The notes beneath the pieces were generated by a model, which saw only the letters and a list, made by a program, of their open reading frames with translations, searched no databases and was not told where the DNA came from. Shown one piece after another: positions 2,544 to 44,182 of a stretch of 45,031 nt of DNA (its first letter is position 1; each line of letters begins with the position of its first letter). The stretch lies in contig JAFUVZ010000029.1 of assembly GCA_017471185.1 (NCBI GenBank), forward strand, positions 1 to 45,031. The letters are read 5' to 3'. Origin of the DNA: Bacteroidaceae bacterium. Lineage in GTDB: Bacteria > Bacteroidota > Bacteroidia > Bacteroidales > Bacteroidaceae. Both the position numbers and the translations under genes were made by a program.

Positions 2544-2620
2544 AGGATTGAGCATTAATCATTACCCTATGGTAATCTTTAATGCTCAATGTTTAACGTT
2601 CAATGTTCAATGTAAATAAT
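2544..2620 (+). repeat. Heptanucleotide repeat spacer with stem-loop between adk and obgE
   Basis: From 2581 the sequence reads in 7-bp steps: AATGCTC, AATGTTT, AACGTTC, AATGTTC, AATGTAA. The same periodicity can be traced back to about 2544 (AGGATTG, AGCATTA, ATCATTA). The left part also forms a stem: GAGCATTAA (2550-2558) pairs with TTAATGCTC (2579-2587), and after a 2-nt mismatch ATTACC (2561-2566) pairs with GGTAAT (2571-2576) around a CTAT loop. The array runs up to the obgE start codon. It belongs to the same heptamer family as the spacers at 28606, 39447 and 43392. Confidence 0.75.
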
Positions 2621-11427: not shown

Positions 11428-11925
11428 ATGGGAGACTTATTAGGTAACATCTTGAATTCCGTGACATCAGGTGGCGCAGCCAGCGGTGCATTGGGAGACA
11501 TTCTGGGACAAGTATTAGGCGCACAGACAGCGGGCAAAGGCAAAAGCCAAGGGAATACTGTCAGCAAGCCCAAGCAGATACCTGCCCAGAACAAAGGTAT
11601 TGACATTGGAAAAGAGCTGGATGCCATAACAGGCACAGACAGCAGTTCAAGCAGCCAAGGCGGAGGCATTGACCTGGGCAGTGTATTAGGAGCCGCAACA
11701 GGTGGCAAAGGTGGCATTGACTTAGGCAGTGTGCTGGGTGCAGTAACAGGTGGTAAAGGAGGTGGTCTTGACCTCGGCAGCATCTTAGGTGCAATGGTAG
11801 GTGGTTCACAGCCAAGTGGTGGCCTTGCCGGCAATCTGGCTGGTGCGAATATCGGAGAAATAGCTCAAAGTGTAATATCTGTCATCGGCATGGCTTCCAG
11901 TGCTTTCGGTGGCTCAAACAAATGA
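11428..11925 (+). CDS. Glycine-rich repeat protein (YidB/DUF937-like composition)
   Basis: A 165-residue, low-complexity protein rich in Gly, Leu, Ala and Ser, without signal peptide. The centre holds three near-copies of a 16-17 residue unit: GIDLGSVLGAATGGKG, GIDLGSVLGAVTGGKGG, GLDLGSILGAMVGG (about 85-130). A related GIDIGKELDAITG sits before them. The N-terminus MGDLLGNILNSVTSGG followed by LGDILGQVLGA resembles the start of DUF937/YidB-type proteins, but the fit is only in composition. It is 6 bp upstream of a TerB-like gene, so the pair is probably one translational unit. Function unknown. Confidence 0.65.
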   Translation: MGDLLGNILNSVTSGGAASGALGDILGQVLGAQTAGKGKSQGNTVSKPKQIPAQNKGIDIGKELDAITGTDSSSSSQGGGIDLGSVLGAATGGKGGIDLGSVLGAVTGGKGGGLDLGSILGAMVGGSQPSGGLAGNLAGANIGEIAQSVISVIGMASSAFGGSNK

Positions 11926-27033: not shown

Positions 27034-27786
27034 ATGAAGAAACTTTTATTTATATTGGTGGCATTGTCGATTGTCAATTGTCAATTGTCAATCGCTCAAA
27101 AGGTGGTGTGCCATCGTGGCTTTTGGGAGACAGAGGGTTCTGCACAGAATTCCATCAGTTCTTTGGTGAAAGCTGACTCCATCCATGCATTCGGCTCTGA
27201 ATTCGATGTATGGATGACAGCTGATGGCGAACTGGTGGTGAACCATGACAAGGTATTCCATGGTGTGAATATGGAAACGTCCACATTTGAAGAGGTAAGA
27301 GCCATCACACTGAACAACGGTGAAAAACTGCCAACCTTAGATGAATACCTTGCCAAAGGCAAGCAGCTGGGTGTGAGACTGGTACTGGAAATGAAGTCGC
27401 TCTCCGACTTCAACCGTGAGGACGAGTGTGCCGCAAAGATCGTGCGTAAACTGAAGCACTATGGAGTGCTCGACCGTACTGACATCATTGCGTTCAGTAT
27501 CAACGCTTGCCTGGCATTCAAGAAATTACTGCCCGACACGAAGATTTATTATTTAGATAACGACTACACGCCCCGCAAGCTGAAGTCTTTGGGACTGGCT
27601 GGTCTGGACTACGAACAAAATGTACTTCGCCAGCATCCTGATTGGGTCAAGGAAGCTCACGATTTAGGACTGGAGGTCAATGTCTGGACGGTGAATGATC
27701 CTGAAGCTTTGCAGTATTTCATTGATTTAGGTGTTGATTACATCACCACCAATAACCCTGTCAAGTTGCAGGAGCTGCTGAAATGA
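27034..27786 (+). CDS. Exported glycerophosphodiester phosphodiesterase
   Basis: A 250-residue GDPD-family TIM barrel that releases glycerol-3-phosphate and an alcohol from glycerophosphodiesters. Catalytic and metal residues are CHRGFWETEGSAQN (H27, R28), GSEFDVW (E56, D58) and VNHD (H71). Later family blocks are LVLEMKS, IIAFSINAC and the terminal VNVWTVNDPEALQ with GVDYITTNNP. The signal peptide is MKKLLFILVALSIVNCQLSI, with AQ after it; its second half is encoded by a heptanucleotide repeat (27062-27096). ATG 27034 is chosen because the in-frame TTG at 27007 would put nine residues before the signal. It lies 39 bp after the G1P dehydrogenase. Confidence 0.9.
   Translation: MKKLLFILVALSIVNCQLSIAQKVVCHRGFWETEGSAQNSISSLVKADSIHAFGSEFDVWMTADGELVVNHDKVFHGVNMETSTFEEVRAITLNNGEKLPTLDEYLAKGKQLGVRLVLEMKSLSDFNREDECAAKIVRKLKHYGVLDRTDIIAFSINACLAFKKLLPDTKIYYLDNDYTPRKLKSLGLAGLDYEQNVLRQHPDWVKEAHDLGLEVNVWTVNDPEALQYFIDLGVDYITTNNPVKLQELLK
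27062..27096 (+). repeat. Heptanucleotide repeat inside a signal-peptide coding region
   Basis: Five 7-bp units: CATTGTC, GATTGTC, AATTGTC, AATTGTC, AATCGCT. They encode LSIVNCQLSIA of the GDPD signal peptide. Three ATTGTCA units make seven codons (I-V-N-C-Q-L-S) and give the same cyclic heptapeptide in every frame. The same repeat in the same sense encodes the DUF5020 signal peptide at 39386-39413. Confidence 0.8.
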
Positions 27787-27892: not shown

Positions 27893-28603
27893 ATGGCAAA
27901 GTTTAAGAGAATCTTATTGAAATTAAGCGGTGAGAGCCTGATGGGGGCCAAAGGTCACGGCATTGACGAGATCCGCTTGGGTGAATATGCAGCACAGATC
28001 AAGGAGGTCCACGAGATGGGTGTGCAGATTGGCATCGTGATAGGCGGTGGCAATATCTTCCGCGGGCTGAGCGGCGCAAACAAGGGCTTCGACCGTGTGA
28101 AAGGCGACCAGATGGGTATGTTAGCAACCGTCATCAACTCTCTGGCATTGAGTAGCGCATTGACAGCCATCGGAGTGAAGAACCGCGTGCTGACGGCTAT
28201 CCGCATGGAGCCTATTGGCGAATTTTATACCAAATGGCGCGCCATCGAGTGTATGGAAGCAGGCGAGGTATGCATCTTCTCTTGCGGCACCGGTTCTCCA
28301 TATTTCACTACCGACACAGGCTCCAGCCTGCGAGGCATTGAGATTGAGGCAGACGTGATGTTCAAGGGTACCCGTGTGGATGGTGTCTATACAGCTGACC
28401 CAGAGAAAGACCCGGCTGCTACCAAGTTTGATGAAATCACCTATGACGAGGTGTTGGCCCGTGGTCTGAAGGTGATGGATCTCTCTGCTATCTGCATGTG
28501 TAAGGACAATAACCTTCCTATCGTTGTATTCAACATGGATGTGGTAGGCAACCTGAAAAAAGTCATCAGTGGCGAGAATATCGGAACATTGGTACACCCT
28601 TAA
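27893..28603 (+). CDS. pyrH: UMP kinase
   Basis: A 236-residue amino-acid-kinase-fold UMP kinase (UMP + ATP to UDP), essential for pyrimidine nucleotides. Signatures: LLKLSGESLMG (about 8-18), VIGGGNIFRG (about 49-58), GDQMGMLATVINSLAL, FTTDTGSSLRGIEIEADV and KGTRVDGVYTADP. Length matches family. The frame is open back to 27818, but homologues begin MAKFKRILLKLSGE, so ATG 27893 is used. It is followed by frr, the usual order in bacteria, with a spacer made of heptanucleotide repeats. Confidence 0.96.
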   Translation: MAKFKRILLKLSGESLMGAKGHGIDEIRLGEYAAQIKEVHEMGVQIGIVIGGGNIFRGLSGANKGFDRVKGDQMGMLATVINSLALSSALTAIGVKNRVLTAIRMEPIGEFYTKWRAIECMEAGEVCIFSCGTGSPYFTTDTGSSLRGIEIEADVMFKGTRVDGVYTADPEKDPAATKFDEITYDEVLARGLKVMDLSAICMCKDNNLPIVVFNMDVVGNLKKVISGENIGTLVHP

Positions 28604-28605
28604 TT

Positions 28606-28661
28606 AATGGAGAATGGAAAATGGAGAATGGAAAATGAATAATGAATAATGAATAATTGAA
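28606..28661 (+). repeat. Eight-unit heptanucleotide array between pyrH and frr
   Basis: Eight consecutive 7-mers: AATGGAG, AATGGAA, AATGGAG, AATGGAA, AATGAAT, AATGAAT, AATGAAT, AATTGAA. The array starts 2 bp after the pyrH stop and ends 5 bp before the frr ATG, so it makes up nearly the whole gap. Most units contain an ATG. On the coding strand it matches the array between azgA and the DUF5020 gene. Confidence 0.9.
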
Positions 28662-28666
28662 ATATT

Positions 28667-29227
28667 ATGAAAGACGTTAAGACAGTAGTGGCCGAAGCTC
28701 AGGAAGCCATGAGCATGGCCGTAGAGTATCTCGAAGACGCACTGGCTCACATCCGTGCCGGCAAGGCTGACATACGCCTATTAGATGGTATCAAAGTTAA
28801 TTCTTACGGCTCGATGCAGCCTATCCAGAACTGTGCATCAGTGACTACCCCTGATGCCAGAAGCATCGCTATCAAACCTTGGGACAAGAATATGTTCAAG
28901 GTGATTGAGAAGGCTATTATCGACTCTAATTTAGGCATCATGCCTGAGAACAACGGTGAGGTTATCCGCCTGGGTATCCCTCCTTTGACAGAGGAGCGTC
29001 GTGTACAGTTGACCAAGCAGTGTAAGGGTGAAGCAGAGAATGCCAAGATGAGCATCCGCAACGCTCGCCGTGACGGTATCGACGACCTGAAGAAGTCTGT
29101 AAAGGAAGGTCTGTCAGAAGACTTCCAGAAGGATGGCGAGGAAGAACTGAAGAAGCTGCACGACAAGTACATCAAACAAGTGGATGACGTGCTGGCAGTG
29201 AAGAACAAGGAAATCATGACGGTATAA
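28667..29227 (+). CDS. frr: Ribosome recycling factor
   Basis: A 186-residue RRF that, with EF-G, splits post-termination ribosomes. It has the long helical bundle (N-terminal [20 protein letters not shown] and C-terminal [20 protein letters not shown]) and the small beta domain (about 31-105: [37 protein letters not shown]). The usual RTGRAxP motif reads RAGKADI, a mild departure. It is the second gene of pyrH-frr-rsgA, with the rsgA start 4 bp after its stop. Confidence 0.97.
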
Positions 29228-36728: not shown

Positions 36729-36747
36729 CTTATTATTTAATTAAAAC

Positions 36748-36775
36748 GATGGGAGAGCTTGGTGTCTCTCCCATC
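36748..36775 (-). terminator. Terminator after the secreted 624-residue protein gene
   Basis: GATGGGAGAG (36748-36757) pairs with CTCTCCCATC (36766-36775) around an 8-nt loop. On the minus strand CGTTTTAATT follows. It lies 11 bp past the stop of the upstream minus-strand gene. Confidence 0.7.
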
Positions 36776-36786
36776 TTCATTATTAT

Positions 36787-38701: not shown

Positions 38702-39448
38702 TCAAAAAGTCCACTTCGCAGCCAAGGTTGGTGTTACATAGAACTTATCGTTGGCTCCCTTGTCATTGAACACGAAGTTGTTGCTCACCTCCACCTCTGT
38801 ACCCAAGCTGAGATTCACGCCATCCATACCCTTCAGTGCATTCAGGTTCACCCAGAACTGCGGCTGGCTCAGCAAGATGAGCTTACCCTTCACGTCCGGA
38901 TCATACCACAGGTCGCAGAAGCCAGAGAAGGTTAGCAAACCTTGGGCGAAGTTAAGTCCCCAAACGGCAGTTCCCTGAAATCCGGCATAACCGTCACGTC
39001 CCATGCCATTGAAATACTGTTTGTACAGAGCCTGCAGAGAGAAAGTCCTGTTAAAGTCACTGCTTGCCCAGTTCCAGGCAAAACCGGTAAGGAACGCATG
39101 CTGGAAACGTGAAGCGATACTGGTATCCTTGATGCTGGTGGCGCCACCGTTATATTCCAGGTGGAAAGCCCATTGTTTGTTCTTCGAGATATCGAACTCA
39201 CGGGAAATCTCCCAATAGACTCCAGCGGCTCCATCGCCATAGTAGTTGATATCCGTAAACATAAAGGTATGTCCCCATTTGTCGGCCTTATAGAGTTCAA
39301 AGGTGGTAAACATCTTCGGACGGCCTTTCAAATCATCATACAAAGCATGACTCGTATTATAATGCAACTGAATGTTCTGAGCGTTGACAATTGACAATTG
39401 GCAATTGACAATTAATGCCACAAACAACAAAAATAAAACCTTCTTCAT
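38702..39448 (-). CDS. DUF5020 (Tsx-like) outer-membrane protein
   Basis: A 248-residue exported protein with alternating aromatic/polar beta strands ending in a C-terminal aromatic (LAAKWTF), as expected for an outer-membrane barrel. Family blocks: LHYNTSHALYDDLKGRPKMFTTFELY, GHTFMFTDINYYGDG, FLTGFAWNWASSDFNRTFSL and GFCDLWYDPD, matching DUF5020, a relative of the nucleoside channel Tsx. The signal peptide MKKVLFLLFVALIVNCQLSI, followed by VNAQ, is largely encoded by heptanucleotide repeats. The entire gap to the upstream purine permease gene is a heptamer array that supplies two bases of this start codon. Together with the permeases it suggests an uptake route for nucleosides or nucleobases. 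Confidence 0.78.
   Translation of the reverse strand: MKKVLFLLFVALIVNCQLSIVNAQNIQLHYNTSHALYDDLKGRPKMFTTFELYKADKWGHTFMFTDINYYGDGAAGVYWEISREFDISKNKQWAFHLEYNGGATSIKDTSIASRFQHAFLTGFAWNWASSDFNRTFSLQALYKQYFNGMGRDGYAGFQGTAVWGLNFAQGLLTFSGFCDLWYDPDVKGKLILLSQPQFWVNLNALKGMDGVNLSLGTEVEVSNNFVFNDKGANDKFYVTPTLAAKWTF
39386..39413 (-). repeat. Heptanucleotide repeat inside the DUF5020 signal-peptide coding region
   Basis: Four 7-bp units on the coding strand (AATTGTC, AATTGCC, AATTGTC, AATTGTC; 39413-39386), plus a related AACGCTC. They encode IVNCQLSIVNA. Same unit and same sense as in the GDPD gene at 27062-27096. Confidence 0.85.
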
Positions 39449-39523
39449 AAATTATTCATTATTAATTATTCATTCTCCATTCTCCATTATCCATTCTCCA
39501 TTATCCATTCTCCATTCTCCATT
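39447..39523 (-). repeat. Eleven-unit heptanucleotide array filling the azgA-DUF5020 gap
   Basis: On the coding strand, eleven uninterrupted 7-mers: AATGGAG, AATGGAG, AATGGAT, AATGGAG, AATGGAT, AATGGAG, AATGGAG, AATGAAT, AATTAAT, AATGAAT, AATTTAT. The first begins with the last two bases of the permease stop TAA. The last ends with the first two bases of the DUF5020 ATG. Nothing else is in the gap. The closest relative is the array between pyrH and frr. Confidence 0.92.
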
Positions 39524-40838
39524 AAAACAACGGTGCCACGTATTTCAGCACGAAAAACGCCGCCAATACATACATCACCCAAGACAGTTCCTTGCCCTTA
39601 CCTACCAGCACCTTTACAATCACATATGACAACATACCCAGCACAATGCCCTCTGAGATACTTGCGGTGAATGGCATCATCAAGATTGTAACGAAGCATG
39701 GCAAAGCCTCTGACATATCATGGAAGTCCAGTTTCGTAATTGGTCTAATCATCATCACACCTACCAATACCAATGCACTGGTAGTCGCTGCAGAAGGAAT
39801 TACCAAGAATAAAGGCGAGAAGAACAAGGCGAGCAAAAACAACATGGCAACAGAGAAGGCAGTCAAGCCTGTACGTCCACCTTCAGCAATACCTGTTGTA
39901 CTTTCAACATAGGTAGTAACTGTAGATGTACCACACAAAGCACCCACGGTAGTACCTACAGCATCGGCCATCAAGGCTTTATTCAAGCCATGTATGCGCC
40001 CGTTCTTATCGGCCATACCAGCACTGGTAGATGCACCGATCAAGGTGCCTAAGGTATCAAACAAATCCATAAACAACAGAGTAAACACCACAATCAGGTA
40101 TTCCACATCCAAAGCTATGAATCGTGAGAAATCAAACTTCAAAGCAACTGGTCCGATAGATGAAGGCAAACTCATCAAAGAGAAATCTTCAGGGATCTGA
40201 GTCACACCAAACGGGATGCCTATCAAAGTCATCAGTAAGATGGTAATGAACAAGGCACCTTTGACATTCAGCTTCAGTAAAGCAGCACCTATCAGAATAC
40301 CAGCCACAGCTACCAATGAAGTTGGTGTCCAGCTACAAAGTGATGTGATGGTGGAGTCGCTCGCCACAATCACACCGCCATTCTTCAAGCCGATATAAGC
40401 AATGAAGAGACCTATACCTACAGAGATAGAGTAACGAAGGTTCAACGGAATGGCATTCACGATAGCCTCACGTACCTTGAAGATGGTGAGCAAGATGAAG
40501 ATAACACCTTCAAATAATACAGCTGCCAAAGCTTCCTGCCAGGTATAGCCCATCACAGCCACCAACGTATAAGCGAAGAATGCATTTAATCCCATGCCTG
40601 AAGCCAATGCGAATGGCATCTTGGCATAGAATGCCATCACCAACGTGGCCACAGCTGCTGCTATTACAGTAGCTGAGAATACTGCTGCCTTATCCATACC
40701 TGCATCACCCAGAATCAAAGGATTGACAGCTAAAATATAACTCATAGTCAGGAAAGTTGTTACACCCGCTAACACTTCAGTCCTGATTCTGTGTTTTGAA
40801 TGGTCAAAGCCTAAAAAACTTAACAATTTATATTTCAT
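39522..40838 (-). CDS. NCS2-family guanine/hypoxanthine permease (AzgA/PbuG type)
   Basis: A 438-residue inner-membrane nucleobase transporter with about 13-14 hydrophobic spans. AzgA-branch signatures: EVLAGVTTFLTMSYILAVNP, ALASGMGLNAFFAYT, GVIFILLTIFKVREAIVNAI, LFMDLFDTLGTLIGAS, GALCGTSTVTTYVESTTGIA followed by EGGRTGLTA, and ISEGIVLGMLSY near the C-terminus. It imports purine bases with protons, feeding phosphoribosyltransferases such as the Hpt encoded at 1408. ATG 40838 (MKYKLLSFLGF) is preferred; an in-frame ATG at 40859 would add seven residues. It lies 51 bp downstream of the uracil/xanthine permease gene, in the same direction. Confidence 0.88.
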   Translation of the reverse strand: MKYKLLSFLGFDHSKHRIRTEVLAGVTTFLTMSYILAVNPLILGDAGMDKAAVFSATVIAAAVATLVMAFYAKMPFALASGMGLNAFFAYTLVAVMGYTWQEALAAVLFEGVIFILLTIFKVREAIVNAIPLNLRYSISVGIGLFIAYIGLKNGGVIVASDSTITSLCSWTPTSLVAVAGILIGAALLKLNVKGALFITILLMTLIGIPFGVTQIPEDFSLMSLPSSIGPVALKFDFSRFIALDVEYLIVVFTLLFMDLFDTLGTLIGASTSAGMADKNGRIHGLNKALMADAVGTTVGALCGTSTVTTYVESTTGIAEGGRTGLTAFSVAMLFLLALFFSPLFLVIPSAATTSALVLVGVMMIRPITKLDFHDMSEALPCFVTILMMPFTASISEGIVLGMLSYVIVKVLVGKGKELSWVMYVLAAFFVLKYVAPLF

Positions 40839-40866
40839 AGTCTTAAAATTAAAATCCATAAAGACT

Positions 40867-44114: not shown

Positions 44115-44129
44115 TTGGGGTTATTACTC

Positions 44130-44182
44130 CCTCGTGAGGAAAAAATTTGTCCCTCGTGAGGGAAAAAAAAATTCCTCGTGAG
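44130..44182. repeat. Three CCTCGTGAG repeats at exact 22-bp spacing
   Basis: CCTCGTGAG occurs at 44130-44138, 44152-44160 and 44174-44182, starts exactly 22 bp apart (two helical turns). The first two extend to CCTCGTGAGG, a small dyad (CCTC/GAGG). The 13-bp spacers contain A-tracts (44140-44145 and 44163-44171), so the DNA may be curved. They lie 45-97 bp upstream of the rpn promoter. Confidence 0.8.

Follow-up and report, generated by a model that had tools for sequence, protein, structure and literature searches.

Arrays of tandem heptanucleotides have already been described in bacteria, and the class is therefore known (PMC4679880, PMC4692102, both in the excerpts available). Direct repeats of the heptamer TAACTGA occur in marine Beggiatoaceae, in Cyanobacteria and in five Bacteroidetes (MacGregor, 2015; PMC4679880). 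As presented in the available excerpts of that paper, they are intergenic 7-bp direct repeats, often near start codons and at lineage-specific sites, whose stop-free strand encodes a heptapeptide and which form long arrays in some Bacteroidetes, all of which resembles the arrays described here. The same excerpts give them one fixed unit, with near-variant repeats rare in the main genome, whereas the arrays studied here use a set of related AATNNNN units within one genome, extend into signal peptides and enzyme loops, and fall outside a class defined by the unit TAACTGA and by the rarity of near variants.

Heptameric intergenic arrays with strong variation in length and sequence, as here, are also found in Xanthomonas and Nostoc (GGGAATC and GGGGA(C/T)T). 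According to the excerpts of the source (PMC4692102), these G-rich heptamers are mostly flanked by the same genes in two related Xanthomonas, where their length and sequence vary, and they belong to a single quadruplex-forming type of unit, in contrast to the AT-rich units without G-runs found here. Mrazek et al. (2007), as cited in the excerpts of PMC4679880 and PMC4692102, proposed a polymerase slippage with a preference for 7 nt and reported heptanucleotides as the most abundant class of long SSRs in most genomes. Their class comprises perfect SSRs, whereas the arrays here are degenerate, and no Bacteroidetes are among the ten richest genomes named in those excerpts. In searches of the open-licence literature, no description of such heptamer arrays in Bacteroides or Prevotella was recognized, and neither a shared vocabulary of several units nor a repeated invasion of the same enzyme loops was found. 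The new part is this shared vocabulary together with the in-frame use in enzymes; heptanucleotide arrays, known in some bacteria, here extend into core enzymes and secretion signals.

The array that is the subject of this work lies in a window of 45,031 nt (the whole stretch of DNA that was analyzed) from a Bacteroidaceae bacterium. It fills the gap between a permease gene and a DUF5020 gene, and it probably grew by slippage, is nearly neutral and belongs to a genome-wide family of degenerate heptanucleotide arrays with a shared vocabulary.

An Eleven-Unit Array in the Permease-DUF5020 Gap

The array (39447..39523, minus strand; units AATGGAG, AATGGAT, AATGAAT, AATTAAT and AATTTAT) fills the gap between a xanthine/uracil-type permease gene upstream (39522..40859, minus strand; PF00860, 7.2e-45) and a DUF5020 gene downstream (38702..39448, minus strand; PF16412, 5.4e-85), the latter match bearing out the identity proposed in the first-pass annotation. 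Read on the coding strand from 39523 to 39447, it consists of AATGGAG twice, AATGGAT, AATGGAG, AATGGAT, AATGGAG twice, AATGAAT, AATTAAT, AATGAAT and AATTTAT. These 77 bases begin with the last two bases of the permease stop (TAA) and end with the first two of the DUF5020 start (ATG), and the earlier claim that the gap is made of eleven 7-mers and nothing else was confirmed.

The self-identity of the array was 0.86 at lag 7 (60/70 positions), 0.87 at lag 14 and 0.82 at lag 21, and did not exceed 0.41 at any of the remaining lags up to 24. In 20,000 mononucleotide shuffles, proposed beforehand as a control, the lag-7 matches averaged 24.6 with a maximum of 39, so that an equal periodicity was not reached and the 7-bp period typical of intergenic heptanucleotide tandem repeats (heptameric SSRs) is above chance. 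Tandem Repeats Finder gave scores of 85 for period 7 and 101 for period 21. Rfam returned no match in 39300-39650, and the RNA folding of the array was not unusual when compared with shuffles (z 0.29).

Four further heptad arrays were listed in the window. A second one, with AATTGTC units, lies within the DUF5020 signal peptide (39378..39415, minus strand) and encodes ...IVNCQLSIVNAQ. A common 7-bp phase of this array and the gap array was considered and rejected, the two being out of phase when this was worked out by hand. Another array with AATTGTC units is located in a signal peptide (MKKLLFILVALSIVNCQLSIAQ) at 27063..27098 (plus strand), and one with AATGTTC units at 2579..2616 (plus strand) stops 2 nt short of the next predicted start. 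Finally, a stop-to-start array of AATGGAG, AATGGAA and AATGAAT units (28601..28667, plus strand) extends from a kinase-family gene (PF00696) to the ribosome recycling factor gene (RRF, PF01765). We infer that the PF00696 amino-acid-kinase-family gene is pyrH. The kinase-RRF array folds less than its own shuffles (z 2.05).

Abundance of Heptad Arrays

The pattern (AATNNNN)x5-AAT had 306 matches in the genome of this organism (2.76 Mb), compared with 4 for the reversed pattern; these matches overlap, so that one long array is counted many times. Matches were present in 108 of 158 genomes of the genus, 207 of 399 in the family sample and 213 of 395 in the phylum sample, this genome being counted in each, and it had the highest count among the genomes listed. 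The reversed pattern was commoner than the forward one in several genomes (e.g., G101 and G138), which indicates that the units differ between genomes.

A search for 7-bp autocorrelation across the genome had been recommended in the first-pass annotation, and lag 7 was the leading signal: 717 kb of own DNA contained 52 segments at lag 7, 39 at lag 14, 27 at lag 21 and 21 at lag 22 (a different repeat), with 0–5 at the remaining lags from 2 to 23. In a sample of 397 kb, 36 lag-7 segments were detected vs. 0 in a Markov simulation. The set of 45 loci from relatives (44 shown; L058 was excluded, its match starting 6 nt into the contig) yielded 21 segments at lag 7, 15 at lag 14, 7 at lag 21 and 29 at lag 22, and 0–5 at the remaining lags up to 20. 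As in the described heptameric SSRs, the many arrays of this genome are mostly intergenic, 37 of the 52 being placed in gaps or at stretch ends.

Shared Unit Vocabulary and Array Growth

The 52 arrays use just 13 consensus units, while independent draws from local DNA would give about 50; each of 2,000 random sets taken from the non-array noncoding 7-mers of this genome had at least 42 units and at most five arrays per unit. The commonest units were AATGTTC, AATTGAC, AATGAAT and AATGGAG, with abundant variants, and the consensus units included AATGTTC (18 arrays), AATTGAC (9), AACGGTC (5), AATGGAT (5) and AATGGAG (4), plus others. In the relative G069 another unit, AATGGTC, dominates (8 of 17 arrays), and two of its consensus units are in common with the present genome, where they account for 14 of the 52 arrays. 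G065 has four of the consensus units (17 of the 52 arrays); therefore, the vocabulary is genome-typical but not private. Relatives thus differ in their commonest units, and how a short repeat gains a genome-wide dialect is a testable question.

Such a shared vocabulary implies either that sequence moves between sites or that the process favors certain units. If each array arose by independent slippage of its local 7-mer, sharing within a genome would not be predicted, unless certain units were strongly favored by slippage or selection. In the mechanism that we propose, the arrays would draw on their small genome-typical vocabulary by one of these two routes, passage between sites or unit preference.

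The similarity between units was analyzed in 48 of the 52 arrays, the four with fewer than five units being excluded. Adjacent units agreed at 5.57 of 7 positions, vs. 5.00 when units were shuffled within arrays, and the agreement fell to 4.55 at a distance of six units; identical units were in excess at distances one to three. Both observations fit tandem duplication of blocks of 7, 14, and 21 bp, through which the arrays would grow and change by replication slippage or unequal exchange. The earlier suggestion of a slippage-prone element is thus supported between species, as gap lengths vary (see below) and neighboring units are more alike than distant ones.

An alternative, which we consider unlikely, is that a templated process inserts arrays carrying the genome's own units at new sites, in the manner of a minimal mobile repeat. 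The use of 13 units by 52 arrays, the same in gaps and in enzyme genes, would agree with it, and so would the mixed three-unit blocks that were common to 27 locus pairs, compared with 7.6 in shuffles. Nevertheless, local growth accounts for the pattern within arrays. Four-unit blocks were common to 4 locus pairs vs. 1.1 in shuffles (maximum 5) and five-unit blocks to none, so that copying of long blocks was not seen; copying of short pieces fits this block sharing, but local duplication could also give it. Moreover, an unsystematic inspection revealed no enzyme, end sequence or target-site duplication, the threonine synthase and gap alignments being examined by eye for terminal repeats and such duplications.

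The Same Gaps in Related Genomes

The permease-DUF5020 gap was compared in five of seven relatives, with one genome per species (G063 and G097 had no usable pair); other gap pairs with doubtful starts, that is, with negative lengths, were excluded from the gap comparison. From stop to start the gap measures 73 nt in the present genome, 33 nt in G053, 22 nt in G099, 25 nt in G069, 39 nt in G065 and 19 nt in G082. When lag 7 was tested against 5,000 shuffles, G053 had 18/26 matches (3 shuffles as good) and G065 23/32 (none as good), and the heptads in these two gaps differ from those of the array in the window. No 7-bp periodicity was found in this gap in G099, G069 and G082, where 934, 3419 and 3447 of the 5,000 shuffles, respectively, were as good. 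In the comparison of orthologous gaps proposed in the first-pass annotation, the length thus varies (19–39 vs. 73 nt), and the periodicity is present in two of the five relatives and absent in three. Additionally, the locus L033 (67% protein identity) has, by eye, an unrelated permease-DUF5020 gap of about 33 nt.

The kinase-RRF gap measures 63 nt in the present genome, 34 nt in G053, 102 nt in G099, 64 nt in G069, 41 nt in G065 and 106 nt in G082. In G069 it has 40/57 matches at lag 7, with no shuffle as good, and the array is in the opposite orientation. The gap of G065 (L132) has a period of 8, CTTAAAAA, with 26/33 matches at lag 8, where the window has a period of 7. Other heptads are seen in G053 (by eye only), and G099 carries an insert of a dispersed repeat; periodicity was not found in this gap in G082. 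The length at the same site thus varies among relatives, between species, as it does in heptameric SSRs.

Arrays Inside Genes

Fifteen of the 52 arrays fall in predicted genes, and by reading they were assigned to 4 signal peptides, 4 other N-termini, 1 C-terminus and 6 internal positions. The four other N-termini belong to MurD, MurG, a PRAI-family protein and a protein with a membrane-anchored-looking N-terminus; the identities of threonine synthase, MurG, MurD and PRAI are backed by Pfam. MurD (L086:10821-12197) and MurG (L086:13581-14735) are encoded near each other, and both start with a heptad-encoded RSTVNGQ. By simple arithmetic, as 7 cannot be divided evenly by 3, an array of stop-free heptads encodes one heptapeptide in all frames. 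Rickettsia palindromic elements also occur in frame within protein genes, as the arrays here do; they are longer and palindromic, and are not 7-bp tandem arrays.

In threonine synthase, heptads occupy two loops whose length and unit vary by species (alignment read by eye), and a phmmer comparison with the Escherichia coli enzyme (1vb3) placed gaps at both of them. At loop 1, again by eye, the gene of the present genome is 21 nt longer than those of G053, G099, G069 and G082, G101 and G062 are shorter, and G065 has a far longer insert in which heptads are accompanied by a copy of a separate dispersed repeat. At loop 2, inserts resembling heptads, with different units, were seen by eye in the present genome, G069, G065 and G101, an insert without clear heptads in G082, and short loops in G053, G099 and G062. 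The N-terminus of MurG, inspected in the same way, is short in G101, G062 and G070, has heptads in the present genome, G069 and G065, and carries other extensions in G053, G063, G082, G097 and G099. The outgroups G101/G062 thus have a short loop 1 and a short MurG N-terminus, both of which are extended in the near clade; this would also agree with the insertion of arrays at new sites.

The dispersed repeat, GATGCTTGCATCGANNNNGNCGAGTCG, was found with two mismatches or fewer in 8 of 10 genomes, with 24 copies in G065, 5 in the present genome and none in G101 or G062. It is nested in the heptad insert within the threonine synthase of G065 (L182/L183), and it is also the repeat of the G099 kinase-RRF gap (L128).

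Heptads of the GTCAAT kind encode V-N-G/C/A-Q. According to the excerpts of PMC5837995, signal peptidase I cleavage in Bacteroidetes exposes a glutamine in most substrates (Q-rule), and it is plausible that the end of the second repeat in DUF5020, ...IVNAQ-N, is a signal-peptidase site. In G053, G099, G069 and G065, heptads with other units were seen by eye in the DUF5020 signal peptide. In a broader reading, which we regard as rather improbable, the heptad would be a minimal self-spreading repeat of Bacteroidota, with a 7-bp period and a genome-typical dialect as its only hallmarks, and a templated process would copy it into gaps, into signal peptides and into core-enzyme loops; since the GTCAATGGTCAA kind spells a V-N-G-Q Q-rule site, the arrays would be ready-made protein parts. 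For gene callers these arrays are a warning that repeats may be the origin of N-termini and loops in these genomes.

Placement Among Genes and Translation

Genes were predicted with a simple codon-bias script, and a gap was scored as positive when 15 nt or more of it belonged to an array. Among the gaps in the sample of the present genome, 24/364 co-directional, 5/55 convergent and 0/63 divergent ones were positive, and arrays covered 4.4, 5.0, and 0.07% of the gap bases, respectively. In three genomes together, the gaps with arrays were 39/563 co-directional, 10/93 convergent and 1/104 divergent (co-directional vs. divergent, p = 0.013; convergent vs. co-directional, p = 0.20). One array of the present genome (L088, 4291-4331) adjoins a divergent gap and was scored mostly as coding because the predicted start falls inside the array; when it is counted, the p-value for avoidance of divergent gaps changes from 0.034 to 0.15 in this genome and from 0.013 to 0.071 in the three genomes. 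Hence, arrays are rare in divergent gaps, with a modest and fragile statistical weight. The enrichment between co-directional genes that the first-pass annotation had envisaged holds, with this weight, against divergent gaps, but not against convergent ones. An earlier gene set (smaller sample, earlier caller) gave an agreeing placement.

Of the 27 co-directional arrays of this genome, 19 are separated from the stop by no more than 15 nt, and 15 are equally close to the start. A preference for the upstream stop was considered and rejected, as only 6 of 13 arrays were nearer the stop where the gap has at least 40 nt uncovered. Selection would set the sites where arrays survive, namely between co-directional and convergent genes and rarely in divergent, promoter-bearing gaps, and stop-free units would also survive in signal peptides, protein ends and enzyme loops.

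The first-pass annotation had suggested that the array could be a track for re-initiation or sliding; in this explanation, a ribosome ending the permease would re-initiate stepwise at overlapping stop-start pairs until it reaches DUF5020. Overlapping or adjacent stops and starts do form a chain from one gene to the other; nevertheless, shuffles of the unit order keep this chain in 29% of cases with the tightest window and in 63% with the loosest. In the kinase-RRF array no such chain forms with a window of 2 or 5 nt, and one appears only at 10 and 20 nt. As would suit such a track, 19 of the 22 scorable co-directional arrays of this genome (27 in total, 5 ambiguous) have the ATG on the coding strand, and 11 of the 27 have the stop as well as the start no more than 15 nt away. 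However, this orientation is not general, the ratio being 3:5 and 1:2 in two relatives (G069 and G065; 4:7 together, p 0.55). Convergent gaps, which have no downstream start, are equally rich in arrays, indicating that a downstream start is not needed, and three of the five relatives keep a short gap of 19–25 nt without an array. RNA folding lends re-initiation no support either. The array therefore does not qualify as a translational re-initiation (coupling) element, and we consider this explanation very unlikely.

It is also highly improbable that the individual heptads are binding sites of an RNA- or DNA-binding protein controlling translation or mRNA stability (e.g., a cold-shock or RRM protein, the RRM candidate being a suggestion of this analysis). 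The vocabulary shared within the genome would suit one binder, and the excerpts of PMC4679880 offer a precedent: for TAACTGA heptamers upstream of starts in Beggiatoaceae, a regulator of translation was proposed, the candidates including cold-shock proteins. However, close relatives have different units at the same locus, both orientations occur, and arrays also lie in enzyme genes and convergent gaps.

Returning to the slippage-grown, nearly neutral array, its presence at this locus is probably close to neutral for the permease and DUF5020. The sense bias of the present genome (19:3, p 0.0009) counts against a strictly neutral array, while the two relatives together gave the 4:7 ratio mentioned above.

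Other Repeats and a Conserved Gap in the Window

A 22-bp tandem repeat, TCCCTCGTGAGGAAAAAAAAAA, is located at 44128-44182 of the window. The 21 lag-22 segments in the 717 kb of own DNA and the 29 in the 45 loci from relatives indicate that there may be another repeat family, with a period of its own. A 48-bp repeat with 2.4 copies occupies 11665-11780, within the ORF 11428-11925. The gap at 36729-36786 contains a terminator-like hairpin and, by eye, no heptads; it measures 56–67 nt in seven of eight genomes and 8 nt in G063, a conserved gap beside variable ones.
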